Position numbers and translations under genes: made by a program
The notes under the pieces: model-generated
Databases searched by the model: none
Told to the model about the DNA's origin: nothing
What the model saw: the letters and a program-made list of their open reading frames with translations, nothing else
Shown: positions 1 through 28,040 of the stretch, one piece after another
Numbering within the stretch: position 1 is the first letter of the stretch
Layout: every line of letters begins with the position of its first letter
From: a virus
Length of the DNA stretch: 28,040 bases
Reading direction: 5' to 3' (one strand)
Virus record (IMG/VR): IMGVR_UViG_3300050821_004318
Coordinates: 1-28,040 of that record

Positions 1-768
1 CTCACCAAAGACCCGACTGCCGAAGAACTCGCGGCTTACAACAAGCGCACCCGCGAGCGCATCGAGCAGTTGCTTGGACAGCGCAACGCCTTCAAGGCTG
101 AAGCCGAAGTCACGCAGACACTGCGAAATTTCCTCGTCACCAACGACATCGCACGGGAAGATTTCCAGCTCACGCTCGACTTGGCGGCGGCGATGCGGCG
201 CGGCGACTTCAAGTCGTTTTTGGAGGGCGTCGGACCCTACGTTCAACTCGCCACGCAGGCATTAGGGATCACGCTCCCGCCGGATCTCCAAGGCGAGGTT
301 CAGCAGGGTCGCGTGACGTTCGACGCGGCGGCTCAAATGTCGCGCGACAGGTATGCCAGGGCTCTCGCCGAGCAGCGCGCGACGCGCGTCACGCAGGTAG
401 CGAGCACTCAAGCTACCACCGCGCAGCAGCAACACCTCTCGCGCTCCATCGAGCAAACGGTGAGCGCGTGGGAGAACGGCATCCGTCAAAGCGACCCGGA
501 CTACGGACGCAAGGAAGAAACCGTGAGGAACTTCCTCTGGGCCGTAGTCCAGGAACGAGGGGCTCCGCAGTCGCCGGAGCACGCCGTCGAGATCGCCAAG
601 GAGGCTTACTCCCGTGCGAACAGGACGCTTCAAACCTTCGCCCCCCAACGACAACCGACCAGGGCAGTTCCGAGCAGCATCAACCGCGCCGCGTCAGGCG
701 CACGCCCGGAACCGCGCTCTCTGATGGAGGCCGCCGAACTCGGGCTTGCGCGTGCTCGCGGAGCATAG
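1..768 (+). CDS. Probable capsid scaffold protein, C-terminal part (5' end outside window)
   Basis: The frame is open from base 1, so the gene starts upstream; a TTG at position 70 lies inside it and is not the real start. The visible 255 residues are rich in Ala, Gln, Glu and Arg, look largely helical, and contain no Cys or enzyme motif. The last 50 residues turn Pro/Arg-rich and disordered. A helical acidic protein directly upstream of the major capsid gene is the usual place and composition of a scaffold protein, which guides procapsid assembly in the cytoplasm and is then lost. The function is inferred from position and composition only. It could also be the tail of a portal-linked or protease-scaffold fusion. 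The gene ends 18 bases before the capsid gene start, consistent with one late operon. Confidence 0.6.
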   Translation, partial: LTKDPTAEELAAYNKRTRERIEQLLGQRNAFKAEAEVTQTLRNFLVTNDIAREDFQLTLDLAAAMRRGDFKSFLEGVGPYVQLATQALGITLPPDLQGEVQQGRVTFDAAAQMSRDRYARALAEQRATRVTQVASTQATTAQQQHLSRSIEQTVSAWENGIRQSDPDYGRKEETVRNFLWAVVQERGAPQSPEHAVEIAKEAYSRANRTLQTFAPQRQPTRAVPSSINRAASGARPEPRSLMEAAELGLARARGA

Positions 769-786
769 CTCCGAGGAGCCAAGCAC

Positions 787-1902
787 ATGGCCTTCACAGC
801 AGGCGAAATCGCCTCTATCGCGAACGCGTCACTCGATTACTACTTCAACAAAGGCGGTCAGTTCGACCAGTCGATCCAAAACAAGCCTCTTCTGAACCTC
901 CTTGAGGGGCGCAAGAAGACTTTCCCCGGCGGCAAGGGCAACATCTCGCTTGCGGTCGTCGGGACCTACGGTGACGGCTCCGGCAACGATGTCGTCAAGG
1001 GCTACACCCACAACGACGCCGTCGGGTTCTTCACTCCCGCCAACATCAAGCGGGCGAACTACCCCTGGCGTGAACATCACATCGGTTTGACGCTCACCCA
1101 CACCGAGCTGAAGATCGATGGCATCAGCGTCGTTGACACCAACGGCGAGAGGACCGCCGAGCACTCGAAGCGCGAGCTGACGGTGCTGGTCAACCTGCTC
1201 GAACAGAAGTTGTTTTCATTGGGCGAGCAATACGCGCGCACCATGAACGCGCTTCTGTGGGGTGACGGCACGTTGGACGCCAAGGCGCTCGCCGGTATGC
1301 GCAGCATCATTAAGGACAATCCTTGCGTCGGCGTCGTCGGCGGCCTCGACCAGACGGCGGCCACGGGGTTCACTTGGTGGCGCAACCGGGCGCACACCGC
1401 CGCGATGGCGACGCAGATCGGGACAACCCCGGGTGACGCGATCTCCGGCGGCGGTCCGATCACGTCGAACCCCGCCAACGGCGGCGCGTTGCTCCAGGCG
1501 ATGCAGCACGAATACTTCCAGCTCATCCGTTATGGCGGCAAGCCGTCGGTGGCTCTGGCGGGTTCGGCGTTCATCGACGCGTTGATGATCGAGCGCCGGG
1601 CTAACGGCTACTACAGCATGACCGGCTTCTCGAACTCGCAAGACATCTCTTCGGGCGATATCATCCTGCCCGGCGGGACTAAGGTGCAATACGATCCGAC
1701 CCTCGACGACTTGGGCTTCTCCAAGCGCATGTACTGGTTCGACCCGAAGTGCATCTTCCTGATGGCGATGGAAGACGAGTGGCGCAAGGACCACACCCCG
1801 GCGCGCCCCTACAACATCTTCGTCCTCTACAAGTCGATCACTTCGACCGGCCAGATGGTCGCATCGATGCTCAACTCGTCGATGGTGGTCGACATCGCTT
1901 AG
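787..1902 (+). CDS. Major capsid protein (probable HK97-fold)
   Basis: This 371-residue protein probably forms the icosahedral shell. Its length suits a podovirus coat protein. It opens with a helical N-terminal arm (first 40 residues), then a Gly/Asp-rich section (residues 50-80), a long Glu/Leu-rich helix region (about residues 120-155, a possible spine helix), and a C-terminal beta-rich part ending in MVVDIA. The start at 787 has a strong GAGGAG ribosome binding site 7 bases upstream. It follows the scaffold candidate and precedes small head genes, the canonical order. A 10-bp perfect hairpin follows the stop codon. The capsid call rests on order, length and general sequence character; the HK97 fold is inferred from family knowledge, and a structure prediction would settle it. 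Confidence 0.75.
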   Translation: MAFTAGEIASIANASLDYYFNKGGQFDQSIQNKPLLNLLEGRKKTFPGGKGNISLAVVGTYGDGSGNDVVKGYTHNDAVGFFTPANIKRANYPWREHHIGLTLTHTELKIDGISVVDTNGERTAEHSKRELTVLVNLLEQKLFSLGEQYARTMNALLWGDGTLDAKALAGMRSIIKDNPCVGVVGGLDQTAATGFTWWRNRAHTAAMATQIGTTPGDAISGGGPITSNPANGGALLQAMQHEYFQLIRYGGKPSVALAGSAFIDALMIERRANGYYSMTGFSNSQDISSGDIILPGGTKVQYDPTLDDLGFSKRMYWFDPKCIFLMAMEDEWRKDHTPARPYNIFVLYKSITSTGQMVASMLNSSMVVDIA

Positions 1903-1927
1903 TGTCCTGTTTTACGGTATACACGCG

Positions 1928-1951: not shown

Positions 1952-1969
1952 TTCGGATGGAGGCAAGTC

Positions 1970-2158: not shown

Positions 2159-2193
2159 CGCGTTGAGCCAGACACGACCAAGGAGAACCCACT

Positions 2194-2924: not shown

Positions 2925-2949
2925 AGGCGCGCCATAGGAGGGTTCGAAT

Positions 2950-3729: not shown

Positions 3730-5217
3730 ATGCCGGGACAGCGAGGGGGCGGCGCGGGCGGCGGGACTTCGCTTTACTACGAGATCGCCAACTTCCAGGC
3801 TGGCATGGATCTCAGGAAATCCGCGCTCACCGCGCCCGCAGGCACCTTGCGCATGCTGCAAAACGCCGACATCACACAAGGCGGCGAGATCCAGAAGCGG
3901 GCCGCGTTCGTCTACTGGTGCAGTGCCCCGGCGGGATCGATGGGGCTCTGTTCGGTCAACAACCTGGTGTTCACCCACTTGGCCGACGGTAACACGGGTG
4001 TGATCGACCAGCCGACAGACACTGACATCGGCGTCATTCACATCGCGCATCCGCCCGGCGACACGCTCCTGGCAATGTACTCGTTCGATGTCTTCAACGG
4101 CCAGATCTACGCCGTGTTCGTCGGCAATCTCCACTGGTGGCACTATTACAATGGCGTCTTGGTCCCGCAAGCCGAGGATAAGGGCACTTTCGTCCGCACC
4201 TACAAAGAGAAGATGTATAGCGTCCAAGGGCGCAATCTTTACTTCAGCGCCGTCGGCGACCCGACGATTTGGCAAGACCCGCCGCCCGACGGGCAAGGCA
4301 ACATCGCGCACAACGGCTCGGGGTTCATCAACATCGGCGCGAACGACGCTGACAGCGAGAACCTCGTGTCGATGGAAGTCTATTACGACAAGATGGCGAT
4401 CTTCTCTAACCTGTCGTGCCAATTGTGGTTCTTGGACCCTGACCCGTCGCTCAACCAGTACTATCAGACATTGCGCGACGCAGGCACGGGCGCGCCGACC
4501 AGTGTGCGCCAGTATGTCGCCAACGACGTGTACTTCCTCGGCACGCACGGCATTCGTTCGCTCAGGGCGCGCGATCTGACGACGACCGCCGCCGTGGCCG
4601 ACGTAGGCTCGCCCATCGACCCGATTATTCAGGATTTGATGGCGGATCGGGGCCAACTCTACGGCGCTTACTGGAGCAAGGCGATTCTGTCGCCGCGCAC
4701 GGGTCGGATCTGGATGACCTTTCAGGACCGGATCTATATTCTTTCCAACTGGGCGTCGCCGAATATCTCGGCGTGGAGCGTCTACATCCCCGAATTCACC
4801 ATCAACAATGCCGATGTTGTGTTCTCGGACCCTTATGTCGTCCTACGCGCCACCGACGACAGCATCTATCGTTTCGGCTCGCAGGGGCCCTCAATCTACG
4901 ACGATTGCCCCGTCAGCTTCACCACCCCTTTTCTGAGCTTCGACAAGCCCGCGACGTTCAAGTTCTATCAGGGCTTCGACGCGATCTGTTCCAACGACCC
5001 GGGCTCAACGTGGAACGTGATGGCAAGTTTCGACCCGACGGCGAACCCCACGCCCTACGATCAGATCTGCACGATTGACGGCCCCACCATCATGGACGGG
5101 CGCATACCTATAAGTGGGCGCGGCACCCACATTCAGCTTCAAATCACCCACCAAGCGCCGGGGCCAGCGACATTCTCCAAGCTGTTCATTCACTACGCCC
5201 CGGCAGATACCTCTTGA
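3730..5217 (+). CDS. Tail hub/nozzle protein, P22 gp10-like (packaged DNA stabilisation, beta-propeller type)
   Basis: The 495-residue product is beta-rich and has repeated aromatic/Asp strands. A central block reads LVSMEVYYDKMAIFSNLSCQ and continues with a QLWFLD segment, then YFLGTHGIRSL and later IWMTFQDRIYIL. This succession (user-interface strands, a statement that the site is valid or on, then another propeller blade) is typical of gp10-like tail proteins that close the portal channel after DNA packaging. The first 15 residues are Gly-rich. It follows the adaptor candidate by 3 bases. Its stop overlaps the next start in TTGA. T7 gp12-like nozzle is the alternative name for the same role; the family call is moderately firm, the exact homologue is not. 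Confidence 0.65.
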   Translation: MPGQRGGGAGGGTSLYYEIANFQAGMDLRKSALTAPAGTLRMLQNADITQGGEIQKRAAFVYWCSAPAGSMGLCSVNNLVFTHLADGNTGVIDQPTDTDIGVIHIAHPPGDTLLAMYSFDVFNGQIYAVFVGNLHWWHYYNGVLVPQAEDKGTFVRTYKEKMYSVQGRNLYFSAVGDPTIWQDPPPDGQGNIAHNGSGFINIGANDADSENLVSMEVYYDKMAIFSNLSCQLWFLDPDPSLNQYYQTLRDAGTGAPTSVRQYVANDVYFLGTHGIRSLRARDLTTTAAVADVGSPIDPIIQDLMADRGQLYGAYWSKAILSPRTGRIWMTFQDRIYILSNWASPNISAWSVYIPEFTINNADVVFSDPYVVLRATDDSIYRFGSQGPSIYDDCPVSFTTPFLSFDKPATFKFYQGFDAICSNDPGSTWNVMASFDPTANPTPYDQICTIDGPTIMDGRIPISGRGTHIQLQITHQAPGPATFSKLFIHYAPADTS

Positions 5218-6181: not shown

Positions 6182-7198
6182 GTGGGCGGCAAGGGCGCGA
6201 AAGGCGCAGTCGACACCAACGGCCAGATCGTCGCCATGCAGCAGCAGCAGGCTGCGCAGGCGACCCAAGCCAACCAAGAGCGCAACGCCCGGCTCAATTA
6301 CGGCACTCAGAACATCAAGAACATCTTCGAAGGCACGCCGACTGGATCGACGCCGCTCGACTTCTCCTCGATCACGCAAGGCAACGCGAAATCTGAAGAC
6401 CCGACCGCGCTGGCGCAGCAGAACGCGGCGTTGCAATGGGGCTATGCGCACGGCTCCCCCGCAAGCGCCATCGCGGGAGTGCAGGCGCAGATGGTCGGCC
6501 CGAAACAGTCGCTTCCCAGCGGCTATTCGTGGGGCCAGTTGCCCGACGACGGCTCTGGCACGCCTCAGTACGGGCTCTATGACGCGTCGGGAAATCTGGT
6601 CAATTCCGGTTCGACTTCGGACCTCGCGGCGACACAAGTTTACGCCGGGGGCGCGCCCGGAACGTCAAACTCGCCGTTCGGGCCCGACTTCTACAACAAG
6701 TACACCCAATCGATCCTCGACTATTACATGCCGCAGGAAGGCCAGCAGTACAACACCGCGCGCTCCAGCCTGTCTTACTCGTTGGCTCGCGCCGGGCAGC
6801 TCAACTCGTCCGTCGCGGGCATGGACATTGGCAACCTCGCCAACCAGGACGCGATCAACCGGGCGCAGATCGCCTCGGGCGCAGACACCCAGACGGCGGG
6901 CTTGCGCTCGACGATCCAGAACGACGAGCAGACCGCGCTCAATCAGCTCTACTCGACCGAAGACCCGAGCGTCGCCGCCAACACCGCCCAGAACATGGTC
7001 GCCAACGCCAACCTCACCAAGCCGTTGTTGAACCCCGCAGGCGCTCTCTTTGCGCCGATCACTGTCGGCGTCGGCAACGCCCTCTCCGGCTTTACCAATC
7101 CGATGGCCTACATCAACCCGAGCGCCGGAGGGGTGGGTTCAACCGGGGCGGCCACGCCGAGCGGAGCCACAGGCACCGGCAACACGGTTCAGGGGTAA
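6182..7198 (+). CDS. Putative internal virion protein (Gln/Ala/Asn-rich)
   Basis: I take the GTG at 6182 as the start: it lies 1 base after the previous stop, has GAAGGA 9 bases upstream, and the in-frame reading before it falls within the acetyltransferase gene. The resulting 338-residue protein has a Gln-rich helical N-terminus (QQQQAAQATQANQERNARLN), a central Gly/Ser/Asn-rich part, an extended helical block around residues 180-260 (LARAGQLNSSVAGMDIGNLA and following), and a low-complexity Gly/Thr tail. It belongs by position and composition to the set of proteins ejected with the DNA to extend the short tail across the cell envelope. No sequence motif proves that function. Confidence 0.5.
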   Translation: MGGKGAKGAVDTNGQIVAMQQQQAAQATQANQERNARLNYGTQNIKNIFEGTPTGSTPLDFSSITQGNAKSEDPTALAQQNAALQWGYAHGSPASAIAGVQAQMVGPKQSLPSGYSWGQLPDDGSGTPQYGLYDASGNLVNSGSTSDLAATQVYAGGAPGTSNSPFGPDFYNKYTQSILDYYMPQEGQQYNTARSSLSYSLARAGQLNSSVAGMDIGNLANQDAINRAQIASGADTQTAGLRSTIQNDEQTALNQLYSTEDPSVAANTAQNMVANANLTKPLLNPAGALFAPITVGVGNALSGFTNPMAYINPSAGGVGSTGAATPSGATGTGNTVQG

Positions 7199-8032: not shown

Positions 8033-9796
8033 ATGCCGATCCTTCGCATGCCGACAGACACGACGCTGGGAGACACGCTCGGCAATCTTGGGCGTTCGCT
8101 GACTGAAGGCTTCAACCCGCTCAACCAGCTCCGTGCCTACGACATTCAACAACAAATGTGGATGCGGCAGCAGCAGCTCCTCCAGTTGCAGCGCGAGAAC
8201 CAGGCGCGTCAGGCCGCCATCGACCAATGGTCGCACATCGTGCCTGCGGACAAGCTGCCGCAGATCGCCCTGATGATCTACCAGGGCGCGCCTTACGACC
8301 AGATCGCTCGTTCAGCAGCGCAACTGAGCGGCAATCTGAAAGACGACCCGAACGCGATGCAGGAGAACATCCGCTACATCGAGCAGATCACCGGCAAGCC
8401 CTACGACTACGCGTCCCTCGGCCCCCCGGTGGCGGGCCCGAACACCGCCAAGGTCTACGACGACTGGAAGGTCAACCAGGCGGGCAAAAGCGCCGCGTCG
8501 ACCGCGCTCGGAACCAAGACCGGCGAGCAGACCGCGACCGCAAATCTGGCGAACGGTTTGATTGACGACACGACGCCGGAAGCGACCCAGAACAACATCA
8601 AGATCATGGAGACGATGACTGGGAAGCCGTGGGATAACCCCTATCCGCCCGCTGTCGGCCCGAAGACAACCCAAGCCTTCAACGACTGGAAGGTCAAGAA
8701 CGCGCAGGACACCGCCGCCGCGACCGCGACAGGCACAAACACCGCCGACAACGCGACCAAGCCGCGCGATCTCGCGAAACCGCAACTGTTTCCGCCGCCG
8801 GGAGGGTTCAACAACGGTCCAGCCGCGCCTGCGCAACCGGCGCAGCCGCCCGCGCCCTCTTCCAATGGTCCCACGCCGCCAGCGCAACCGACGCTGCCAG
8901 CACCGGCGACGAACCCTCCCAATGTGTCTGTGCCCAACACGGCGGCTCCGTTCGCTCCGCCAGCGCCGGTCGTGCGCCAGACACCCGTAGGCACAATCGT
9001 TGGGCAGACACCGACTGAAACTGCCGCCAGCACCTCGGTGAGCGACGCCAATCTGAAAGATCTCACGCAAGCGCTAACCGAAGCTCAGTCCGCCAAGCAG
9101 CTTCTGCCCAAGCTCGATCAGCTTCACGATCTGGTGCATCTCTACAACGCAGCGGGGCCGACTGGTCAGCTCGACGCTGGCGCTGTCAAGCTGATCGCCG
9201 ACAAATGGGGAATGTCTATCGGCGACAAGGGAGCCGCCTATCAAGCGATCCAACAGCTCCTCAACTCGGAGATCCCCGACATCCGCCAGAAGGCGGGCAT
9301 TCAGCGGTTGGCGGGCCCTGCGATCAAGGAAGAGCAACTGATCATCGGCAACCCCAACATGCCGCCGAAAGTGATGGACAACATCATCGCCAACGAGAAA
9401 GCGGCGGCAGACATCCAAGTCGAGCGCGGCAACATCGCCTTCAAAGCGCGATATGGGCAAGGCCAAGCCGCGCTGCCGATGCCGGATTACGCCCAGCAGA
9501 GCTTCGATCTGGACAACACCATCCAGCAGCGCACCGACGATTACCGCAAGCAATATGGCGCTGTCGGCACGGAGAGCCAGCAACCGGCGACAATCACGAC
9601 GCCGCCGCCTATGCTAAGCAGCAACCCGTTCAGCGACGCGATCAGCGCGGTCGCGAGATTGTTCGGAGGGGGAGGGGGTGCGCAAGCGCAGCCCCCGCAG
9701 CCACCGCCGACACAGACACCGCCAACTCCTGACGCAGCGCCTCCGCAGCAGTTTCAGTTCGACCCGAAAACGAACTCCATCGTGCCGGTGCAGTGA
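8033..9796 (+). CDS. Large virion protein with an internal tandem duplication
   Basis: This is a 587-residue protein. Residues 35-65 form a Gln-rich coiled-coil-like helix. Residues about 104-168 and 178-240 are two diverged copies of one unit, each with a (I/M)(E/Q)xxTGKP core, PP/AVxGPxT and (D/N)DWKV. Residues 245-325 are Pro/Ala linker. A second folded helical region spans about 345-500 and includes IQQLLNSEIPDIRQKAGIQR. The end is Pro/Gln-rich. No enzymatic motif is seen. It starts 3 bases after its upstream neighbour and overlaps the downstream start (TGATG). The place in the operon corresponds to the large ejection proteins (T7 gp15/gp16 slot), so an internal virion role is inferred. 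Confidence 0.5.
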   Translation: MPILRMPTDTTLGDTLGNLGRSLTEGFNPLNQLRAYDIQQQMWMRQQQLLQLQRENQARQAAIDQWSHIVPADKLPQIALMIYQGAPYDQIARSAAQLSGNLKDDPNAMQENIRYIEQITGKPYDYASLGPPVAGPNTAKVYDDWKVNQAGKSAASTALGTKTGEQTATANLANGLIDDTTPEATQNNIKIMETMTGKPWDNPYPPAVGPKTTQAFNDWKVKNAQDTAAATATGTNTADNATKPRDLAKPQLFPPPGGFNNGPAAPAQPAQPPAPSSNGPTPPAQPTLPAPATNPPNVSVPNTAAPFAPPAPVVRQTPVGTIVGQTPTETAASTSVSDANLKDLTQALTEAQSAKQLLPKLDQLHDLVHLYNAAGPTGQLDAGAVKLIADKWGMSIGDKGAAYQAIQQLLNSEIPDIRQKAGIQRLAGPAIKEEQLIIGNPNMPPKVMDNIIANEKAAADIQVERGNIAFKARYGQGQAALPMPDYAQQSFDLDNTIQQRTDDYRKQYGAVGTESQQPATITTPPPMLSSNPFSDAISAVARLFGGGGGAQAQPPQPPPTQTPPTPDAAPPQQFQFDPKTNSIVPVQ

Positions 9797-15588: not shown

Positions 15589-15650
15589 CCCCAACCATCT
15601 GAAATAGAAGCCGAATTTGAACCACCCTCGGGTGTCTGGCAAAGTTGTCA

Positions 15651-17722: not shown

Positions 17723-17769
17723 GTGTCTATTAACTAGTAGTTGTGTCTGGTCGTGTCAAGTTTGTCTGG
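17723..17769. promoter_or_regulatory. Four phased GTGTC-type sites upstream of the HTH gene
   Basis: GTGTCTA (17723), GTGTCTG (17743), GTGTCAA (17753) and TTGTCTG (17762) are on one strand at 20, 10 and 9 base spacings, close to whole helical turns. They fill the only gap in this part of the operon, immediately before the HTH gene start at 17708. A bound protein would contact one face of the DNA. GTTTGTCTGGCTT (17760-17772) is also found in the attP left arm at 15396-15408. Confidence 0.5.
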
Positions 17770-17771: not shown

Positions 17772-20345
17772 TCAAACTGGCTCTTCGTCGGCGGACGGAA
17801 ACGGGATTATCGTGGCGCTCGCGGGCCGCGGGAGGTTCTTCCACAGCGCGATGATTTCAGTGTTGGTCATGGCGCTCCATTCGCGCCCGTCCGGGGCCTT
17901 CTCGCCCAGAAGCCACAACCGGCCCGAATGCTTCCCGTCACTGACAACGCCGCACAGGTGAGGAGCTTTTGGATCAAGCTTGAGACGGCGAACGCCTTCA
18001 TTTCGCCGCTCCATATCCAAGAGCCACGTTCGAACATTTTGCGGCGAAGGCTGCTGCAAACCTCGAAGCTTGATCCAGCCGCCTAATTCCTCGGCGGTCG
18101 CCACGAGGTTCCTTGGCGTCCCGTCGACACCTTCCCGAGTATCGCGAAGGATATCTTCAAGCGCGGCGAGCTGCGGGGTGGTGTTCTGATATTCAAGCTC
18201 GATCTTGTCAGCAGTTTGCGGCGCGACGCCGCCAGCGAATTCTTTCACCTCCGCTTCGGTAAGCGGGTAGCTCAATAAATAAGCCGCCGCGAGTTCGGAC
18301 CCGCCGCTGCCGAGCCACGCCATCAGATTTTCATAGTAGAACGGCGGTTCAGGTTTGGCGGCGCGCCGATTGACGACGTGTACGCGGCGCTGGTCACGGT
18401 CGAGGAGAAGCGGGTTAAGCTCGTTGGAAAACAGGATCAGGGCGATCCGGTTGGGGATGACGTAAAGCGACTTGTATTTTTTGTTGACGGTGAAGCGCTC
18501 CGGCGGCTGCGCCAGAAGAGGTTTCAACCGAGTGCCGACATCATGCGCCGACATGTGCCCTGTTTTCGGTTGAGCGGTTTCACCAACGATCAAAAGCTTG
18601 TTCTCGATCAAATCGTTGAAGGGGCTGGCGACGCCATAAATCAACTCTTCGATCCAATTGCCGTCACCGACCGCGAGCTTCAGCGGCAAGACCATCGTAT
18701 CCTTGCCCAGCCCTTGGATGGACATGATGAGAAAATGCCAATTCGGTTTAAGCTTTGGGTGCTGGACGACAAAAGCGCACCATTTGATGAACCGATCCCG
18801 TTCAATCACAGAGCCAAGCACGAACAAAACATGCTCAAGCCAAGGTTTGACCTGATCAGCAGACACCGTTCGCGCTTGGATCGTTGAAGGCCGCCAATAA
18901 TTCAGAGTAGGCACGCCGGAAACTTCCGTGTCGATGAAACGCGGATCGCCAGGCGCATAAGTGATGTCGAACACTTCAAGCCGATCAAACTGCTCCAAAA
19001 ATAGATCAGCGACGGAGGGCAGTGGTTTACTTTTTTTGTGGCCCGGACGCAGTTCGGCGCAAAGCCTTCGTTTGAGATAGGCGTGCATGTCGGCGAATGG
19101 CTGTCGCTGAACGGCGCGGCGGACATTCAGCTCGACAAAGCCCTTCAACGCACAATATGCCCAGCGCTCCCGAAGCATGTCCCAAATCGGCGTCTTACTC
19201 TGGAGGATCGGGTCTTCGGGATCGAGATCGGGAAACGCCTGCCCGGTCGCAGGCACGAGCGAACGCACGAGCTTGACGAGCCCGAGAGGCCCAAATCGCA
19301 GCGGCTGGCCGAGCACGCTCTTCCAGACGCTTTCGGAGGTCTGGGCTTGCTGCGCGCGTCCATCTGACCATCTGACCCAGAGCGCGAGCGCCTCTGGCGT
19401 GGCGGCGAGAACCGCGCCCAGGAACGCCACCAGGGCATAGGCGACGCTAATCCAATTTTCGTAGACATCGAGCCAGCGGTCGATGTCGGTAGGCGTTTCG
19501 CCGGGAGGCACGTCGCGGTTCAGGATCTCGTCGAGGAGAGTTTCGGCTTCGAGGATCTTCTCCCGGATCTCGTCTGGAGAGAGGGGCGGATTGGAGGGGG
19601 GTTTAGCCGCCCTCCTCGCAGACACGGAGGCCGCAGACACGGTCGCAGACACCGACGCCGGAGGCGGCCCGTCGAGAACCCAACCAATTTTTTGCGCCTC
19701 CACAAGAAAACTTGTGATGAACTCGCTTATCTTGTCGACGCTCATAACCGGGATCTGGTCGAGCCCTTCAAGCGCCCGGCTCCAGACGTAGGGGCCGCGC
19801 GTACCGGGATGAAGCCCCGCGATCACGGCTTGCTTGCCCGACGCCAGCAACTGGACTTCGGTCGCCAGGACGCCGTTGCGAAATTTGAACGACCTGTTGG
19901 CGACCGGCGCGCCGTCGCCAACGAAATCGACCGCCCGCATGAAGAAAGCGTCGCGCTCATGCTTGGGCGCGAACACGTAGCGCCGGAGGGGTTCAACTCC
20001 GGTGTACGCGAGCAAAAGCGCCCGGAAAATTCGCGAGAAAATCTCGCCCTGGTCGTTGTCGACAATGAACCAACCGTCGCCTGCGACAAAGCCAACGTTC
20101 GCGCCCCACTCGTCGCGCCAGAGCTTCGCGGTGGCGTAGTCGTCGCAGCGAAATTTCGGATTGTTCACGTCGACGCCGACCCAGCCCGACGGGGTGAGCT
20201 TGCCCGGGGCCTTGCCTCGGTCTTTGGGATGGATTTTCGACGTAGGCGAGATGTCGCAATCGGGATGCGTCACAGGCACCAGGCGCGGGCCAAAACCCAG
20301 GTCGTAGAGCTGGATCGCGTCGTACTGGAGCCTCAAGTCGGGCAT
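17772..20345 (-). CDS. Primase-helicase (Prim-Pol N-terminus, DUF5906/P4-like helicase C-terminus)
   Basis: The product has 857 residues. The N-terminal primase-polymerase domain (about 1-215) has the DxD pair in WFIVDND (Asp96, Asp98), the ATEVQLLASGKQAVI strand with Glu163, and the GLHPGTRGPYVW motif (His179). A Pro-rich linker at 225-260 leads into a PriCT_2-like region (about 285-345, ALALWVRWSDGR). The helicase domain shows Walker A-like GLGKDT (545-550), a Walker B-like LLIVGE (584-589) and the SF3-type ALILFSNELNP followed by DRDQRR (649-654). It should unwind the origin and prime DNA synthesis for the family A polymerase encoded nearby. It overlaps the HicA-like gene by 13 bases. The linker contains three VSA tripeptides encoded by the GTGTCTGCG repeat. 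Confidence 0.8.
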   Translation of the reverse strand: MPDLRLQYDAIQLYDLGFGPRLVPVTHPDCDISPTSKIHPKDRGKAPGKLTPSGWVGVDVNNPKFRCDDYATAKLWRDEWGANVGFVAGDGWFIVDNDQGEIFSRIFRALLLAYTGVEPLRRYVFAPKHERDAFFMRAVDFVGDGAPVANRSFKFRNGVLATEVQLLASGKQAVIAGLHPGTRGPYVWSRALEGLDQIPVMSVDKISEFITSFLVEAQKIGWVLDGPPPASVSATVSAASVSARRAAKPPSNPPLSPDEIREKILEAETLLDEILNRDVPPGETPTDIDRWLDVYENWISVAYALVAFLGAVLAATPEALALWVRWSDGRAQQAQTSESVWKSVLGQPLRFGPLGLVKLVRSLVPATGQAFPDLDPEDPILQSKTPIWDMLRERWAYCALKGFVELNVRRAVQRQPFADMHAYLKRRLCAELRPGHKKSKPLPSVADLFLEQFDRLEVFDITYAPGDPRFIDTEVSGVPTLNYWRPSTIQARTVSADQVKPWLEHVLFVLGSVIERDRFIKWCAFVVQHPKLKPNWHFLIMSIQGLGKDTMVLPLKLAVGDGNWIEELIYGVASPFNDLIENKLLIVGETAQPKTGHMSAHDVGTRLKPLLAQPPERFTVNKKYKSLYVIPNRIALILFSNELNPLLLDRDQRRVHVVNRRAAKPEPPFYYENLMAWLGSGGSELAAAYLLSYPLTEAEVKEFAGGVAPQTADKIELEYQNTTPQLAALEDILRDTREGVDGTPRNLVATAEELGGWIKLRGLQQPSPQNVRTWLLDMERRNEGVRRLKLDPKAPHLCGVVSDGKHSGRLWLLGEKAPDGREWSAMTNTEIIALWKNLPRPASATIIPFPSADEEPV
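19619..19652. repeat. Triple CAGACAC cluster inside the primase-helicase gene
   Basis: Three copies of GCAGACAC (CAGACAC at 19619, 19634 and 19646) stand 15 and 12 bases apart in the linker of the primase-helicase. They are read as VSA on the coding strand. They are the densest intragenic cluster of a 7-mer that is over-represented throughout the window. Confidence 0.6.
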
Positions 20346-20560: not shown

Positions 20561-22566
20561 AGCTTGCCGTATCTTTCGACGATCCCGCCCGCGCAGGAGA
20601 GCGGCAGGCCCGCCGCCCATGCTGGAGGCGCGCTCATTACGCCTTTCAACGAAGCCAAGAGCGCGGGAGCCTGTTCGGTCTCAATCATGGCGACGATCTC
20701 GTCATGCACAGTAGTCAGAAGAGCACTCGGGGCGTTTCGCTCCACTACGATCATCGCGTGGGCGAGCAGATCGCGCGCGACCGCCTGGGTGGTGTTCTCG
20801 GCCAGCTTGCCGCCGTAGGTGTCCAGCTCGCACCATTGGCGGGTGTACTGGTTGACGCCCCAGTAGATGATCCGCCCGTCCTCGACCCGCGCATTGCGGT
20901 AGACGAGGCGTCGTCCCGACGGCAATTCCATCAAGAGCGCGCCTGCGAGACGCCCCTTTGGATCGCCCATGCGAAATGCGAGCTTCTTGAAGGTGAACAT
21001 GTCGCCAGGGGTAACAATTGCAGCCTTGGCGCAGGCTTCGAGCGCGTGCCACAGCACGACAATGGGTGCGTTCGCAGCGCGAAAATCACGCACTGCGTCG
21101 CGGGCTTCTCGAAGGGTCAGGATCAGCTTGTAAGTCGCAGCGGTTTCCCGAAATCTGTCGGGGCCCATGCCGTAGCCGCACGCCAGGCGCAGGACTTTGC
21201 CCAGTTGTCGATTGGTCGAGCCGATGCTCGCCGCCGTGAACGTGTAGACATCCTCGTGCCTGCGGAACACGTCGAGGAGAGGTTCGAATTCGGCCAGCCA
21301 GGCGAGCACAATCGCTTCAATCGCGTGATAGTCGCAGACCACGAATTTGAACCCCTCCAGCGCTTTGAACACGCCGCGCAGACACGACGACACCACGTCG
21401 AGAGGTCGACCGAACAGGAGGCGCAGACTGTCGGCGTCCATGCCCTTGAGGATTTGCTCGATGGCTTTGTCGACGTGCTTGACGACGGGCCTTGGAAAAT
21501 TCTGGATCTGTGGGCCGCGACCGGCCCAGCGCAAAGTGCGCACCGCGCCGCCGTACTGCACCAGATTGCGAGCTCGTCCGTCCGGTGAGTAAGCGTTGAT
21601 GGCGGCGAGTTTCGCCGTCGAGGTCTTGGCCGCCTCGGCGCGCAGCAGGAGCACGTCCTGGGTGTCCTGGTCGAGCGTAAAAAATCCAGGCCAGCCGATG
21701 AAACCGGCGAGCGTGTCTTTGGCGAGTGAAGCGTGCGGATAGCCGCGCTCGCGCACCCACTCCAGGAGCTTCACGTTTTGCGTTGCGCCGTTGACCTCGC
21801 CGTTGGTGATGCGGCGAATTTCGGCATTCAGACGCAGCAGCTCCTGAAGTGTGATCGCGTGCAGCGCGGTGAGCAGCTCGCGATCTACGGGAAGCCCGCG
21901 CTGGTTCATGTGCTGGTCGACAAGCCAGATCTCGCGCTCGCGGGGCGGCATGCGCGGGATGCGCAGGTGAACGTCGCGTTCGGCTTCAACGTCGGCGATG
22001 TTGTAGGCGATCAGTTGCTTGAGCTTGACCGGGTCTTCGCGATGCCACCAAACAGGTTTATGGTTGGCGTCAAAGCGCCGGGGCCGCGCCATGCGTTTCA
22101 TCACGGCGTAACCGGCCTTGTCTTTGACGTGGGGCGAGCCGACTGCTTGCGAGGCGTCGTCCAAACTCATGGGAAGCCCGGCGCAGGCCGCCGCCGCCAT
22201 CGTGCAAAAGAACCGCTCGATAGGCAGAGCGGGCCAGCCGTAGCGAGGCGCACAAATATTGTTCCACACTGCCCACTCGAAGGCGGCGTTCCAGGCGTGG
22301 ATCTCGGCCCCTTCATCGATAGCGCGAAGAAGCGTCGTCCGATGATGAAGAGCGTAGACGACTTCAGAGCAAGCCGGATCAGCAAGCAGCGGGTTCAGCG
22401 GGTCCAGCAAGTCGAAACCGATCACGTTGGGTGGCTTGTGATCGATGGCGAACCCGGCGAGGATCGGCACGGTGTCTGGATGCTTCGTCCAAACGTCCGC
22501 GCCGACTTCGGTCAGGTCGAGGACGCCCGCCAACTCGAAATCGAGGCTGACGACCGTCGCGCCCAT
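20557..22566 (-). CDS. Family A DNA polymerase with 3'-5' exonuclease domain
   Basis: The product has 669 residues from the ATG at 22566, which overlaps the upstream stop in TGATG; the frame is open further upstream but reads across the GcrA-like gene. Exonuclease motifs: DFE near residue 9, HAWNAAFEWAVWNNI and YNIADVEAERDVH. Polymerase motifs: A, FKFVVCDYHAIEAIVLAWLA; B, RQLGKVLRLACGYGMG with the expected Arg, Lys and Tyr-Gly; C, TTVHDEIVA near residue 621. It should replicate the phage genome. It is shorter than E. coli Pol I, which has an extra 5' nuclease domain. It is co-translated with the HicA-like gene downstream. Confidence 0.92.
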   Translation of the reverse strand: MGATVVSLDFELAGVLDLTEVGADVWTKHPDTVPILAGFAIDHKPPNVIGFDLLDPLNPLLADPACSEVVYALHHRTTLLRAIDEGAEIHAWNAAFEWAVWNNICAPRYGWPALPIERFFCTMAAAACAGLPMSLDDASQAVGSPHVKDKAGYAVMKRMARPRRFDANHKPVWWHREDPVKLKQLIAYNIADVEAERDVHLRIPRMPPREREIWLVDQHMNQRGLPVDRELLTALHAITLQELLRLNAEIRRITNGEVNGATQNVKLLEWVRERGYPHASLAKDTLAGFIGWPGFFTLDQDTQDVLLLRAEAAKTSTAKLAAINAYSPDGRARNLVQYGGAVRTLRWAGRGPQIQNFPRPVVKHVDKAIEQILKGMDADSLRLLFGRPLDVVSSCLRGVFKALEGFKFVVCDYHAIEAIVLAWLAEFEPLLDVFRRHEDVYTFTAASIGSTNRQLGKVLRLACGYGMGPDRFRETAATYKLILTLREARDAVRDFRAANAPIVVLWHALEACAKAAIVTPGDMFTFKKLAFRMGDPKGRLAGALLMELPSGRRLVYRNARVEDGRIIYWGVNQYTRQWCELDTYGGKLAENTTQAVARDLLAHAMIVVERNAPSALLTTVHDEIVAMIETEQAPALLASLKGVMSAPPAWAAGLPLSCAGGIVERYGKL

Positions 22567-23018
22567 CACGCCCTCTTCGCGTAATGCGTTGAAGCTGGAT
22601 TGCAGAGCACGTGGTGCACGGCGCAGTAAGGCGAATTTGCCTGACGCGGCTCGCCGCAGAACCGATGATCGCCACGCTCGGAGCCGGAAAACACCGCATA
22701 CCGGCAATGATGAGGTTGCAGCTCGACCACGCGGAACGGCCCGCGCGCAGGCGGCGCAGGCGCGATCACGAGCGCAGACACGGATAAAGGCGGCGCTTTG
22801 GATCGCCTGGCGCGTAGCCGTGGCGGCGTGGGCTCGCGCGGGGGCTGCACGCGTTCGGGAAAGCGCGGATCACCCCTTAGACGGGCGTCGCGCGCCAACC
22901 GACAGACCGAATTCTTGGAGATGCACAGGAGCCGACCGATTTCAGCGGTCGTGATGCCTCGCGTCCAAAATTTAGCGATCTCGGCGAGAACAGCCTCACC
23001 GTGTCGAGGCGTGGTCAC
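22566..23018 (-). CDS. GcrA-family cell cycle regulator homologue
   Basis: The product has 150 residues and a GTG start at 23018 overlapping the previous stop (GTGA). The N-terminal GcrA-type helix-turn-helix is visible (LAEIAKFWTRGITTAEIGRL followed by ISKNSVCRLARDARLRGDPR), then a Pro-rich linker, then the C-terminal Cys/His block CRYAVFSGSERGDHRFCGEP with a later YCAVHH, matching the GcrA end (CRW-FCG-YC-H). In Caulobacter GcrA works with sigma-70 and favours promoters with CcrM-methylated GANTC sites. Here it may redirect host transcription or regulate phage genes. It sits directly before the DNA polymerase gene in the replication operon. Confidence 0.82.
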   Translation of the reverse strand: MTTPRHGEAVLAEIAKFWTRGITTAEIGRLLCISKNSVCRLARDARLRGDPRFPERVQPPREPTPPRLRARRSKAPPLSVSALVIAPAPPARGPFRVVELQPHHCRYAVFSGSERGDHRFCGEPRQANSPYCAVHHVLCNPASTHYAKRA

Positions 23019-23527: not shown

Positions 23528-24256
23528 TCAGACCAGCTCTTCGGTGTCCTCGTCGTCGGGGAAGCTCTCGGACGCGGCCTTGCGGCCATCGAGCCGCTTG
23601 CCGGGGCGCAGGAACTGCACGCTGTCGAGGAACAGACCGCAGCCCTTGTTGCCGCCCTGGTCGTAGGCGAAGGGCCGCACGTTGGCGCGCACCAGCCAAC
23701 CGGCCCAGAACTCGGTCCAGTCGATGATGTCCTCCTTGCGCGCATTCACTGCGCCGGGCTTGTCTTTCGACCACGGCGAAATGAACACGTCGCCCGCCTT
23801 GTAGCCATCGTAGACACCGGCTTTCTCAGCCCCGTCGTGGAAGGGCGAGCGCAGGCCGACGGGCAGCTTGCCAGGCCAACGCTCCTTGAGGGCTCCATCA
23901 ATACCCATCTGGAGCGTCTTGAATTCGGGGCGCGCCTGCTGCGCCTTATCGAAGATCAAGGTGAGCGAGAAACGCGGCTCGCCGCCAACGACGACAGGCC
24001 GGGCCTTCTGGAGGTTCAAAAACGACGCGGTGCCCGGAGGCGTCAGAATAGAAGTCGTAGCCATGACAAAGTCCTTTGTGTCTGCGAAGTCCTTTGGGTC
24101 TTCGGGTGGTCGCCAGATCGCGTCTGGTCGACACATGTTGCGGATAGCTTCGTCCCACCATTGAACCGCGACTGCCTGCCTGTTCTTGGATAAGCAGGTG
24201 AACAGGTAAGTACCGGGTCGCGGCGGAATGTCTCCCGGCCAAAAATGGGTCGACAT
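23528..24256 (-). CDS. DUF2815 family protein (ssDNA-binding-like) with 64-residue N-terminal extension
   Basis: The long form has 242 residues from the ATG at 24256, which overlaps the nuclease stop (TGATG). The DUF2815 domain begins at an internal ATG at 24064 (178 residues, the usual family length) with its own AAAGGA site. Family features are GEPRFSLTLIFDKAQQ, KAGDVFISPWSKDKPG, WAGWLVRANVRPFAYDQGGN and the acidic tail DDEDTEELV, which resembles single-stranded DNA binding protein tails. DUF2815 proteins are usually encoded with DUF2800 nucleases, as here, and are thought to bind DNA in recombination or replication. The extension (Trp-rich, RPGTYLFTCLSKNRQAVAVQ) may be a fused small protein; both forms may be made. 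Confidence 0.8.
   Translation of the reverse strand: MSTHFWPGDIPPRPGTYLFTCLSKNRQAVAVQWWDEAIRNMCRPDAIWRPPEDPKDFADTKDFVMATTSILTPPGTASFLNLQKARPVVVGGEPRFSLTLIFDKAQQARPEFKTLQMGIDGALKERWPGKLPVGLRSPFHDGAEKAGVYDGYKAGDVFISPWSKDKPGAVNARKEDIIDWTEFWAGWLVRANVRPFAYDQGGNKGCGLFLDSVQFLRPGKRLDGRKAASESFPDDEDTEELV
24062..24077 (-). promoter_or_regulatory. Internal start with ribosome binding site in the DUF2815 gene
   Basis: On the leftward strand AAAGGAC stands about 6 bases before an in-frame ATG (24064). Initiation here yields a DUF2815 protein of normal family length without the 64-residue N-terminal extension. Confidence 0.55.
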
Positions 24257-25071
24257 CAGACAATTCCTTCTTCATCGAGTTCAGGGTCGTAATCTGGAAA
24301 GCTGTCAATCGAGCGTTGCAGTTTTAGTCTTCGGTAAGCCGGGCACTCGATGCTAGCGGCGCAAAAATAGCAGTGATTTCCGGCCACGAGAGACAGACCG
24401 CGCCCGGCGGCGATCCGTTCGATAGCGGGCTTGAGGACGGCGTAAGCCCAGTACAGCAGCTCGCCAACCGAGAGCGTCCACGAACGCACCGGATCGCCTC
24501 CAGCGCGAGGCTGCACGATCAGCACGCAGACACTCTCGATGGACGCGGCGAGGTCCGGGCGCACCAACATCAGTCGTCCCAGGACGCCGACCGCGTAGCA
24601 AAGCATCTGGGTGTTGCCCTCGGGCCTGACGGCTTTACCGCGCCCGTATTTGAAGTCGACGATGTAGAGCGTGATCGCGTCGCACGCCGCGAAGTCGGCA
24701 GTGCCAAACAGCTCCTCGGGCGGCCCGTCGGTCCACAGCCAGCCGAGAGACACCTCCTCCTCGACCATGCGCCAATCCGAAAAATCCGAGATGCGTCCTG
24801 TTGTCGCCGCAAAAAGAGACACGGCGTTCAGCATCTCCTGCGTCACCTCGATCTCCTCCCCGTCGACCATGAATTTCATGCCTTCGGTCCACGGCACCGC
24901 GTTAAGCTTGAGCGCCGCCTCGCAGAGCGCATGCGCTAAAGTCCCCTCCTTAGCGGCGAAGCCCACCTGTTTCGGCGGGTGTTTCGCCCACTCGGCTGGA
25001 GCGCCGAGACACGTCAGCCAGATGTCGCTGGACGACGGGCCCAGGCGCGCGTGGCGCTTGGCGTCCGCCAT
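24256..25071 (-). CDS. DUF2800 family PD-(D/E)XK nuclease (Cas4-like)
   Basis: The product has 271 residues. Nuclease core: EGTLAHALCE (His47), GTADFAACD (Asp126), IVDFKYGRGK (Asp139, Lys141) and NTQMLCYA (Gln155, Tyr159), the order of a RecB/Cas4-like exonuclease. Cys21 near the N-terminus and CYFCAASIEC (Cys233, Cys236, Cys242) match the four-Cys iron-sulfur cluster arrangement of AddB/Cas4 enzymes. It probably processes DNA ends during phage recombination together with the DUF2815 protein encoded immediately downstream. Start and stop overlap the neighbours in TGATG, so all three genes are tightly coupled. Confidence 0.85.
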   Translation of the reverse strand: MADAKRHARLGPSSSDIWLTCLGAPAEWAKHPPKQVGFAAKEGTLAHALCEAALKLNAVPWTEGMKFMVDGEEIEVTQEMLNAVSLFAATTGRISDFSDWRMVEEEVSLGWLWTDGPPEELFGTADFAACDAITLYIVDFKYGRGKAVRPEGNTQMLCYAVGVLGRLMLVRPDLAASIESVCVLIVQPRAGGDPVRSWTLSVGELLYWAYAVLKPAIERIAAGRGLSLVAGNHCYFCAASIECPAYRRLKLQRSIDSFPDYDPELDEEGIV

Positions 25072-25625
25072 CAGACTACGGGCAAACCCGCCGCCTGCAC
25101 CAGGTCATAAAGCGCGGGCCGATGTTTTTCGTCGGCGTTCATCACGAATTGGAGCCCAGTCGCGTCTTTGAACCCCGGCAGGAGATCGAGGATCACTTTC
25201 GAACCCTCCCCTTTCTGCGCCAGGCGCACTGCGGCGGTGACGACCGACTTGAGCGTGTCGAGCGGAGGCAAATCCACCGGAGGCGGAGGGGGAGCGGGGG
25301 GCGCCGCCGCAGGAGCTGGCGCTGCTGGGGGCGGGACCGCAGACACGCGCGCCCGTTGGGCTCGCGCTCGCTTCGCGGGCTCCGGCGCTGGCGTCGGCTC
25401 GGGCTCGGGATCTGCGCCATTACCCTTGGCGTGGCTGGCTTCGTCCTCGGCGGCGTCTTCGGCGTCGATCTGTTCACGCGCCTCGGCTTCGGCTTGGACC
25501 GCTTCGGGGTCGAGGGGTTGGCCCAGCCAGGACGGCGGTTTTTTGTTTTGTAGCGCGTAGGTCAGTACGAGTTGCAGCAGTTTGTCTGGGGTTTCCGCTT
25601 CAAACACTACAGAAATTTTGCTCAT
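25071..25625 (-). CDS. Hypothetical protein with Pro/Ala-rich linker
   Basis: The product has 184 residues. An N-terminal segment (ISVVFEAETPDKLLQLVLTY) and a C-terminal segment (TLKSVVTAAVRLAQKGEGSK to the end) look folded; between them are about 90 residues of Glu/Ala/Pro-rich linker, with a run of prolines around residues 108-118. The C-terminal piece resembles small phage proteins that contain helical repeats with a conserved Gly-Gly/Lys-Val pattern, of unknown role. It opens the nuclease-DUF2815 group and overlaps the nuclease start. A partner or accessory protein of the nuclease is plausible. Confidence 0.6.
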   Translation of the reverse strand: MSKISVVFEAETPDKLLQLVLTYALQNKKPPSWLGQPLDPEAVQAEAEAREQIDAEDAAEDEASHAKGNGADPEPEPTPAPEPAKRARAQRARVSAVPPPAAPAPAAAPPAPPPPPVDLPPLDTLKSVVTAAVRLAQKGEGSKVILDLLPGFKDATGLQFVMNADEKHRPALYDLVQAAGLPVV

Positions 25626-25682: not shown

Positions 25683-27119
25683 TCACTCCGTGTTCGGAAA
25701 CACGTACTCGGCTTTCTCCTCCTTGCCTGGCGCTCCATCGATGACTTGGGCGATGTCCCGGGTCTTCCGGGCGACGATGCTCATCAAGCGGGCGTCCAAA
25801 GTACCAGGTAACAAGACGAACCGCGCCAGCACCGGATGTTTCTGGCCCTTGCGATGGGCCCGGGCGATAGCCTGGTGGTTCTTGGCAGGCACCGGGGAGG
25901 GCTCGGCCACGATCACGTTGTGCGACGCGTGCAGCGTGATCACCTCGCCCGCGGCCTCGATGGCGAGAATGATCAAACGTCGCCGCTCGTCGTTCTGGAA
26001 TTGTTCGATAGCGGCGTCGCGCGCGCTCATTGGCGTGCCGCCGTGGATGACGAGCGGCGTGTGCTTCTTGAAGTTCTTTAGGTAGTCGGCAAGCGACAAA
26101 ATGACTTCGCGGTGATGCGCGAAGATAATGACCTTGTCGTCCTCGGCGTCGTCGAGCGCGTCGGCGGCGAGATCCCCGACCCCTTCGACCTTGGCGAGCC
26201 CAATCAGGCGCCGGATAGTCGAGAATGCAACCGAACCGGCTTGCACCGCGCTTAAAAGAGCGTCGTCATCAAGCGCGTCGATGTCGCCGAACTCTCCCGT
26301 GGCGTCAGCCAGCATCCGGCGGAGGTTAGGATTGACGTAAATGCTTTCGGGCAGCGTGTGTTCGACGATGCGCAGCTCGGGCATGTCGAGGATCACGTCC
26401 TTGAGGCGCTTGCGATTGGCGAACGGCTTGATCCGCCCGGCCAGCTCGTGGGTGTTGCGCCCGCCCATGATGCGAACGCCGTAGGGTGTCTGCCGGGTGA
26501 CGCAGAAACGGTCGGTGAACACGCCATGGGTCATCACGCCGAAACCGGGGAGAATGATGGTGTCTGGGGCAAGCGCGTGCAGGTGGGTCCAGAACTCTGC
26601 CGGGTGGTTCAACAGCGGCGTGCCGGTGAGACACCAGATACGGGAAGCGTGCTGGAGAGCCGATCCCTCGCCGAGGTCGTGCTTGACGCCGTAGATCGCG
26701 CTTGAACGCCCCGCTTTGGGGTTTTTGAGGTAATGGGCTTCGTCGATGATCACGACATCCCAATCCTGTCTGGCGGCGGCTTTGCCGATGCCGCGCGCTT
26801 CATAAACCCACGAGTAAGGGACAATCCGAACCCCTTCTCCCTTGACGAAGGTGAAGGGCATACGCGCAAGCGCGCTGTCCCGGTTCATCACCTGTATGTC
26901 TTGGATGTCGCTCCAGTCCTCGAAGTGCTGCCGCCAGACGGCGGTGCCAATCGGAGGACAAAACACCAGGATGCGCGCCGCGCTGGCCAACAGACACGCG
27001 CGCACACTGGTTGGCGTCTTGCCGACACCAGGGTCCCACACGAGCATCGCCCGGCGCGACTGCGCCAGGAGCTTCGCGCCTTCCTCTTGGAAGGGCATGA
27101 GTTCGAGCCCGGGTTTCAT
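25683..27119 (-). CDS. SNF2/DEAD-type helicase (SF2)
   Basis: The product has 478 residues from the ATG at 27119, which overlaps the stop of the small upstream gene; the frame is open further upstream but covers that gene. Motifs: Q-motif-like MPFQEEGAKLL, Walker A DPGVGKT (29-35), DEAH box VVIIDEAHYLKNP (126-129), SAT-like WCLTGTPLLN, and in the second lobe KVIIFAHHREVILSLADYL and motif VI AIARAHRKGQ. This is the compact phage SNF2-like helicase that commonly sits with DUF2800, DUF2815 and polymerase genes and is thought to act in replication or recombination as a DNA translocase. It has no visible nuclease domain. Confidence 0.88.
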   Translation of the reverse strand: MKPGLELMPFQEEGAKLLAQSRRAMLVWDPGVGKTPTSVRACLLASAARILVFCPPIGTAVWRQHFEDWSDIQDIQVMNRDSALARMPFTFVKGEGVRIVPYSWVYEARGIGKAAARQDWDVVIIDEAHYLKNPKAGRSSAIYGVKHDLGEGSALQHASRIWCLTGTPLLNHPAEFWTHLHALAPDTIILPGFGVMTHGVFTDRFCVTRQTPYGVRIMGGRNTHELAGRIKPFANRKRLKDVILDMPELRIVEHTLPESIYVNPNLRRMLADATGEFGDIDALDDDALLSAVQAGSVAFSTIRRLIGLAKVEGVGDLAADALDDAEDDKVIIFAHHREVILSLADYLKNFKKHTPLVIHGGTPMSARDAAIEQFQNDERRRLIILAIEAAGEVITLHASHNVIVAEPSPVPAKNHQAIARAHRKGQKHPVLARFVLLPGTLDARLMSIVARKTRDIAQVIDGAPGKEEKAEYVFPNTE

Positions 27120-27289
27120 CGTTTGAACAAATTCCACGCGTGTTCGACCAGTTCTCTCGACAGTCTCTGGATCTGCTCCTCTTGCGCGGGAGTGCGTGTT
27201 CCCTTGACAGCTTTCTTGGCGGCTTGAAGCTGGGCAAACATGGCGCGAGACTTTAACTTCTCGATCTCGGGAAAATCTTCCGGTTTCAT
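27116..27289 (-). CDS. 57-residue small protein between resolvase and helicase genes
   Basis: The product begins MKPEDFPEIEKLKSRAMFAQ and ends WNLFKR. It is a charged, helix-rich peptide (KKAVKGTRTPAQEEQIQRLS). Its ATG (27289) overlaps the resolvase stop in ATGA, and its TGA overlaps the helicase start in the same way. This exact fit between two real genes argues strongly that it is translated. The composition suggests a coiled-coil or accessory subunit. No family recognised. Confidence 0.7.
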   Translation of the reverse strand: MKPEDFPEIEKLKSRAMFAQLQAAKKAVKGTRTPAQEEQIQRLSRELVEHAWNLFKR

Positions 27290-27771
27290 ACGAATTTCGC
27301 CCCTGTCTCGGCATCATGCGCGAACCGCGCCAGTAAAAGCGCGTCGGCGCGTCCGTGATGCTTTTTCAGGCCAAGCATCTTCGCCGCGTTGGGATAGAGC
27401 TGGATCGCCAACTCACGCGAGGCGTCCTTCGGCAGTCCCGTTAACCGGAAGTGTGTCTTCCAGCGCGTAGGCGTTACAAAAGAGACAGGAACGTCCAAAG
27501 CTCCCGCAATGCCGAGACAAACGCCGTAGGCGCACCCGAACGTAAACACGCTGGCGACACCCTGGCCGGGCCGGGAGGCAACTTTCTCGATCACCATGAG
27601 TTCAGGCTTGTGCATGCCGAAGATCGAGCCCAGTTCGACGGCGCTCAGAGCTTTGGCGAACCGGGGTAGCTCGCCCATGTCGACAAACGCGCCGTCACGC
27701 CCCAAAACAGCGAACGCGCCGTTCACGCCGGGGTCAATCGCGAGGACTTTCGAACGTGGCTCGGGCGACAT
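27286..27771 (-). CDS. RuvC-like Holliday junction resolvase
   Basis: The product has 161 residues from the ATG at 27771, which is not preceded by a strong ribosome binding site; a GTG at 27837 would add 22 residues without family character. RNase H-fold active site: Asp in VLAIDPGVNGAFAV (residue 11), Glu in MVIEKVASRPGQGVAS, and the C-terminal KKHHGRADALLLARFAHD with His and Asp. The GGxxxF-like FTFGCAYGVCLG follows. It should cut four-way junctions made during phage recombination or resolve packaging branches. It is the first recognisable gene of the leftward operon. Confidence 0.85.
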   Translation of the reverse strand: MSPEPRSKVLAIDPGVNGAFAVLGRDGAFVDMGELPRFAKALSAVELGSIFGMHKPELMVIEKVASRPGQGVASVFTFGCAYGVCLGIAGALDVPVSFVTPTRWKTHFRLTGLPKDASRELAIQLYPNAAKMLGLKKHHGRADALLLARFAHDAETGAKFV

Positions 27772-28040
27772 TCGCGCTGGCTTTGTTGCGAGAAAATTAG
27801 GGTTTGTCGGGCTCGGACGACACCCTGCCAGACGCACATCGGCGCGTCAATAGTTTTGTCCGTTCCTGTGTATAATTTCCTCGGTTGGTTGAAATCCTTG
27901 ATGTTTTGCAATTCGATGGTTGTGGAAAAATATAACCACAGCACAATTTTTGTAGGGAAAAATACCTAAAATGCCTTGATTTGTCTTGACATGTTTTGTA
28001 TGGACGTGTCTCGTTATGTGCGACACAAAGTGTCTGATGT
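27772..28040. promoter_or_regulatory. AT-rich control region upstream of the leftward replication operon
   Basis: No convincing gene is seen from 27772 to the window end. The stretch 27850-28000 is strikingly AT-rich compared with the rest. It contains a dyad TGTGG-(10)-CCACA (27921-27940), a perfect GACAC-AAA-GTGTC palindrome (28022-28034), a further GTGTCTC (28006) and a TTGACA (27986). No good -10 box at standard spacing was found, so exact promoters are not assigned. It is the natural place for the early promoter and operator, and possibly an origin of replication, of the leftward genes. Confidence 0.5.
28022..28034. promoter_or_regulatory. GACAC-AAA-GTGTC operator-like palindrome
   Basis: A perfect 5+3+5 inverted repeat made of the GTGTC half-site that recurs in every gene-free control region of the window, with another GTGTCTC 16 bases to the left. 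A dimeric regulator is the simplest explanation. Confidence 0.5.

Follow-up and report, generated by a model that had tools for sequence, protein, structure and literature searches.

The IMG/VR virus record IMGVR_UViG_3300050821_004318, analyzed here over its whole length of 28,040 bases (hereafter the window), contains the heptamer CAGACAC dispersed from one end to the other. Comparison with related phages reveals that the presence of such a word follows the genes for CobS and CobT, and that its spelling is lineage-specific and changes fast between close relatives. On balance, we consider it probable that, with the dispersed word, the phage marks its whole genome as self, a mark that a phage-encoded CobS/CobT-like machine would bind and read. 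Although the window is a whole IMG/VR entry, it represents a fragment of a phage, with relatives of 44-53 kb. These relatives came from IMG/VR, where queries with the capsid and polymerase proteins yielded 86 loci.

The dispersed word and its lineage-specific spelling

CAGACAC occurs 23 times on the + strand of the window and 10 times on the - strand (as GTGTCTG), i.e. 33 times in total, against 3.1 copies expected under a trinucleotide Markov model. An earlier note on this DNA, made from the sequence without database searches, had listed 32 positions, all of which were recovered; it had missed a single + strand copy at 2169..2175, so that the + strand count is 23 and not 22. The note was right that the word is far above chance and that codon usage is not the cause: 29 copies are located in coding sequence, compared with 4.6 +- 2.0 after synonymous codon shuffling within genes (the maximum of 500 shuffles being 11) and 3.2 after genome-wide codon shuffling. 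Copies are found in all three codon frames, so that codon use or a repeated protein stretch cannot account for them, and the enrichment is a feature of the DNA itself. Single-base variants of the heptamer are at or only slightly above expectation (7-mers counted in the relatives G006 and G008), which means that the word is sharply defined, with all seven positions counting. Even spacing of the sites is slight, confined to G006 and the window, and not general. A second dispersed word, GAACCCC, is also enriched (23 copies in the window vs 5-6 expected; 63 in G008 vs 11-14); in the window, G006, G008, and G025 it is mostly intragenic, present on both strands, and not positioned at start codons.

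Regarding placement, the proposal that every main gene-free region carries a cluster was not borne out, as gene-free regions hold just four copies, one apiece (2169..2175 on the + strand and 14484..14490, 17743..17749, and 28030..28036 on the - strand, the last where the record is cut off on the right), and the rest are inside genes. The orientation bias that had been noticed persists only in part: 13 of the 14 copies in rightward genes are on the + strand, while leftward genes exhibit no such bias.

One group of relatives shares CAGACAC at 9-17 copies per 10 kb, and every relative with this motif is enriched (in the longer records, 70 copies in G006 and 65 in G008, both of full length, and 40 in G025). 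Other relatives, with capsid proteins 85-92% identical, have no CAGACAC and carry instead a different word at similar or higher density. Among close relatives these words are AGGCAC (108 copies in G007), [AG]AGACAC (G004 has 79 AGACAC, comprising 34 AAGACAC, 40 GAGACAC, and only 3 CAGACAC), and GGACAC; among more distant ones they are TGACAC (110 in G014), GGACAA (114 in G009), GGGACA (117 in G022), and CGGGAC (206 in G019 and 184 in G020). These excesses persist against codon-preserving shuffles. The capsid tree groups the words by clade: CAGACAC corresponds to one clade (90/83), nested within a well supported clade of 20 rows that also includes AGGCAC, [AG]AGACAC, and GGACAC. Thus, the word is inherited, yet quick to turn over.

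The individual sites follow the same pattern, in that conservation is limited to relatives that share the spelling. When the window sites were aligned to same-word relatives, 41/84 were kept vs ~16 expected, which agrees with the conservation anticipated by the earlier note; in other-word relatives 0/25 were kept vs ~4 expected (both totals are sums over per-relative results for relatives that are not independent, and the expectation was derived from random 7-mers in the same alignments). On the + strand, copies are kept at 115..121 (in L001, L002, L009, L018, and G006), 4016..4022 (L003, L009), 6882..6888 (L002, L009, L018, G006, G008), 8055..8061 (L018), 18860..18866 (L082), 19634..19640 and 19646..19652 (both in G025 and L082), 21379..21385 (L082-L085, G006, G008), and, in G025, at 22775..22781, 24527..24533, 25340..25346, and 26991..26997. 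On the - strand they are kept at 22472..22478 (G025, L081, L083), 24078..24084 (G025, L081, L084, L085), 26486..26492 (L082, G006), and, in G025, at 15632..15638, 26560..26566, and the intergenic 17743..17749. Besides the other three intergenic copies, the remaining sites are located at 8978..8984, 9005..9011, 9713..9719, 11017..11023, 11962..11968, 12524..12530, 12547..12553, 13137..13143, 16717..16723, and 19619..19625 on the + strand, and at 8924..8930 and 15518..15524 on the - strand. An unusual arrangement was observed in G008, where eight copies of CAGACAC at 26437-26541 (L099 6437-6547) form a tandem, iteron-like array with an exact spacing of 14 bp, close to an A-rich tract (L099 6146-6248); among the relatives compared, this array was seen in G008 alone.

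A search of genome collections revealed a prophage of the same family in Devosia sp. 66-22, 48.5 kb in length, with matches to the capsid (57-60%), terminase (57%), and polymerase (up to 46%), as well as an integrase homolog, CobS, and CobT. Its top 5-mer is GGACA, and a two-change-point fit to the GGACA positions placed the limits at 17,750 and 66,250, in agreement with the prophage genes; in this single case tried, the word alone outlined the prophage without gene annotation. The density of GGACA is 5.34/kb inside vs 1.49/kb outside (3.6 times), that of the reversed-word control is 1.59/kb vs 1.15/kb, and GC is about equal on both sides. Since the word is dense in the prophage and not in the flank, the enrichment is a property of phage DNA. 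In the host flank the top 6-mer is GCTCGA (z-score 11.5), which also leads the enriched words in several motif-less phages (G012, G015, and RHEph10); it resembles a background word of the host type, a hint that the hosts are alphaproteobacteria.

These data bear on the possibility that the word reflects the host or base composition, i.e. codon pairs, a host signature, or a methylation or restriction motif acquired from the host. The genomes do have a high GC content and pronounced codon biases, and certain GC-rich or palindromic words are in excess in controls as well. However, codon-preserving shuffles fail to reproduce the excess, the prophage is richer in its word than its flank at equal GC, CAGACAC is not enriched over its reversed control in two bacterial genomes, and no methyltransferase of the PF01555 or PF00145 families, the two searched for, was found in 15 records. 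We consider this explanation most improbable; codon usage and host origin were rejected on the grounds of the shuffles and the prophage densities.

Association with CobS and CobT

All predicted proteins were compared between 12 motif-bearing and 8 motif-less genomes (tblastn, E 1e-3), the latter comprising G010-G013, G015, G016, and G021, together with G023, which has a weak signal. CobT is present in 12/12 motif-bearing vs 0/8 motif-less genomes, and CobS in 11/12 vs 0/8, the twelfth (G007) being a fragment that ends at that point. These are the only protein families that separate both sets of this 20-genome comparison, the next best being found in 11 vs 4, and iterative hidden Markov model searches upheld the absence of CobS and CobT from the motif-less relatives. 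In the relatives CobS belongs to the MoxR-type AAA+ proteins (AAA_5, CbbQ_C) and CobT to the VWA proteins, and the CobT of all motif genomes checked contains an HExxH metallopeptidase motif. The window record itself has neither gene; its right end precedes the spot where relatives carry CobS and CobT, and in the nearest relative that possesses both (G025, PolA 83% identical) they are located beyond the position that corresponds to this end.

Sites for other phage DNA processing, such as primase start sites or Chi-like recombination signals, would be a different explanation. T7-type primase reads 5'-GTC, and GTGTC is a T7 primase site; most of the words contain GAC/GTC, several include GTGTC, and the sharp, asymmetric 7-bp specificity resembles that of Chi. 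However, homologs of primase, PolA, SSB, SNF2 helicase, and exonuclease occur in motif-less relatives too, the primase of the G008 type was undetected in the motif-bearing G009 and G024, and none of the proteins of replication or recombination tells motif-bearing from motif-less genomes. A host Chi, moreover, would stay constant between phages whose capsid proteins are 85-92% identical. We regard this possibility as quite unlikely. Neither is it likely, if somewhat less implausible, that the word is a centromere- or nucleoid-like site for a small protein merely linked to CobS/CobT: the array of G008, with its regular spacing and the A-rich tract nearby, is suggestive of such a site, but it has no counterpart in the other relatives, and no further co-occurring protein was found at the tblastn threshold used, at which very small or divergent ones could escape.

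The earlier note had compared the repeats to stoperators, i.e. dispersed sites bound by a repressor that silences the prophage, as in cluster A mycobacteriophages. The notion of dispersed, recognition-type sites stands, as judged from the sequences, with the qualification that their spelling is lineage-specific; the silencing of a prophage by a repressor does not. Dispersed asymmetric sites, a spelling that differs among relatives, and the sense-strand bias in rightward genes would all fit stoperators, and related cluster A phages have similar, non-identical stoperator motifs (PMC6550527). On the other side, no tyrosine integrase (PF00589) or serine recombinase (PF00239) was found in the full-length G004, G006, G008, and G014, whose motif is the strongest, and no HTH_3 match, this being the only repressor class searched, in G000, G004, G006, G008, and G014, while the motif-less G010, G011, and G016 possess an integrase (PF00589), accompanied in G010 and G011 by HTH_3. 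Temperate phages also exist among the motif-bearing ones (G025, G019, and the Devosia prophage), and an integrase is present in some motif relatives; the motif is thus indifferent to lifestyle. The two window proteins suggested as binders are not conserved across the motif phages: the helix-turn-helix (HTH) protein at 17454-17708 (84 amino acids) occurs solely in G004 and the CAGACAC phages, and no relative compared has the winged-helix protein at 15925-16260. Furthermore, most copies lie within genes, sites occur in either orientation, and words that differ by one base show little or no enrichment. Based on the distribution of integrases and repressors and on the placement of sites we rejected the stoperator explanation, which we deem very unlikely.

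A separate observation concerns the + strand gene at 14571-15287 of the window, downstream of the structural genes, whose product carries a PEP-CTERM sorting motif (E 4.7e-5) and, at its N-terminus, a signal-like sequence, which is odd in a phage.

Long and short variants of CobS

The CobS proteins associated with the word comprise 467-617 amino acids and thereby exceed the cobaltochelatase-type length (~330 amino acids, without an N-terminal extension). The cobaltochelatase CobS (PDB 9ujv, 328 amino acids) aligns only to positions 179-466 of the CobS profile; since the match starts at position 179, the first part of the long CobS is extra. This region spans roughly 140-250 residues and includes a small domain predicted to form four helices (predicted local distance difference test score of 83); a SAP match in one member is weak (E 0.048). 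The region is an obvious candidate reader of the word, although covariation does not single it out.

Beyond the family, phages with a long CobS also possess words of their own: the Microcystis phage Mae-Yong1326-1 (CobS of 508 amino acids) has GGACAG (130 copies vs 39), the Roseobacter phage CRP-810 (617 amino acids) CAGACG (131 vs 50), and T5S1 (531 amino acids) AGACAA (79 vs 37). No such motif was found in ICP2, SSU5, nickie, BUCTxx99, X66, Cyrano, RHEph10, and Syn1, whose CobS has 371-431 amino acids. These eight short-CobS phages rule out a generalization to every CobS/CobT phage, and the claim was accordingly narrowed to long CobS. A search with the CobS profile yielded 73 loci, at which a GAC-containing top word is recurrent where CobS is long and rare where it is short. 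Over 82 sequences in all, the top 6-mer contains [ATG]GAC in 29/48 long-CobS vs 2/34 short- or no-CobS sequences (Fisher 2e-7), with the reservation that this pattern and the long/short cut were chosen after part of the data had been seen and that phylogeny was uncontrolled; the median best z-score for sequences of at least 25 kb is 11.9 vs 4.0.

Several sequences in this comparison exhibit features of their own. The haloarchaeal virus HHTV-2 (L248) has an extended CobS with an HTH-like N-terminus of an intermediate type, and the leading word is GAGGAA, which falls outside the GAC kind (z-scores of 9.7 and 10.7 for GAGGAA/GGAGGAA), an excess that could represent codon pairs or a word of its own. 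In L162 (MW202898), for which no CobS was found, CGGCCA/TGGCCA are enriched (z-scores of 9.5 and 7.0), again not of the GAC kind. In the cyanophage Syn1 (L170 26922-29057) the protein annotated as "peptidase" adjoining CobS has HExxH and a DWSGS motif of the metal ion-dependent adhesion site type; judged from its sequence, this is consistent with its being CobT, as stated in PMC8651126.

Apart from the reservation attached to the long/short comparison, several observations weigh against a word read by CobS and CobT. The genomes are not independent, and about three losses of CobS/CobT account for the motif-less relatives. G024 has both genes and yet a weak motif (z-score of about 5-6), while G023 (L145-L147), which lacks them, keeps a moderate excess of GGGACC (97 vs 51, z-score 6.5) that could be a remnant decaying since the loss of the genes. 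AGGCAC, the strongest class, lacks GAC. The predicted N-terminal domain of CobS has no fold match in the PDB, and similarity of the motif tracks the AAA part and the N-terminus of CobS alike (partial r of 0.33 and 0.27).

A possible self-mark and its relation to known systems

In the mechanism we propose, CobS would act as an AAA+ ring ATPase and CobT, which bears the HExxH metallopeptidase motif, as a VWA adaptor. The two would bind the word, perhaps via the N-terminal region of CobS. More speculatively, the sites, one per 250-850 bp, may be frequent enough in loading phage DNA with the AAA+ ring that the machine might then strip or cleave host proteins (nucleoid or defense) from it; alternatively, phage DNA might be exempted from an attack directed at host DNA. 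Removal of proteins is proposed by analogy with other MoxR/VWA pairs, in which the ring is coupled to a substrate through the VWA partner. Taken more broadly, and more tentatively than the reading of the word as a self-mark, there may be a class of phages with a lineage-specific, genome-wide word of 5-7 bp read by a dedicated machine of long CobS and CobT, which would serve to tell self from host DNA, so that the machine either spares phage DNA or acts on it selectively; word and reader would evolve jointly into a multitude of specificity types.

Among known systems, Chi, KOPS (FtsK-orienting polar sequences), and DNA uptake sequences are likewise sharp, short, asymmetric words enriched across a genome; those are features of the bacterium's own genome, whereas here the word is specific to the phage and its spelling varies from one close relative to the next. 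The stoperators of L5 and Bxb1 are similar in that many short asymmetric sites are spread over a phage genome with a spelling that varies between relatives (PMC6550527). They differ in length (13 bp vs 5-7 bp here), and the word described here, with up to ~200 mainly intragenic copies, needs no repressor or integrase and co-occurs with CobS/CobT. Repeats of the T1/TLS type, found in lytic phages and likened to stoperators by the authors who described them, have no known role (PMC4319613, PMC11447400); they are mainly intergenic and oriented with transcription, in contrast to the mainly intragenic copies in both orientations observed here.

The viral cobST cluster itself has been widely reported (PMC8651126), and phage cobS/cobT genes are common and usually read as boosting host vitamin B12, with a function called uncertain (PMC11288001, PMC8651126). 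The proteins analyzed here resemble this auxiliary cobalamin pair in the AAA+ domain of CobS and the VWA domain of CobT; they differ from it in the N-terminal extension of CobS, in the HExxH of CobT, and in their co-occurrence with a genome-wide word. In the open-access papers searched, we found no earlier report of such a word or of its link to CobS/CobT.

Tying one class of cobS/cobT to a phage-specific, genome-wide word points to a DNA-directed role for these genes, and the link makes their function testable in cultured phages. If our interpretation is true, it would amount to a new kind of phage self-recognition, in which dozens to ~200 sites would have to change together when the specificity shifts.

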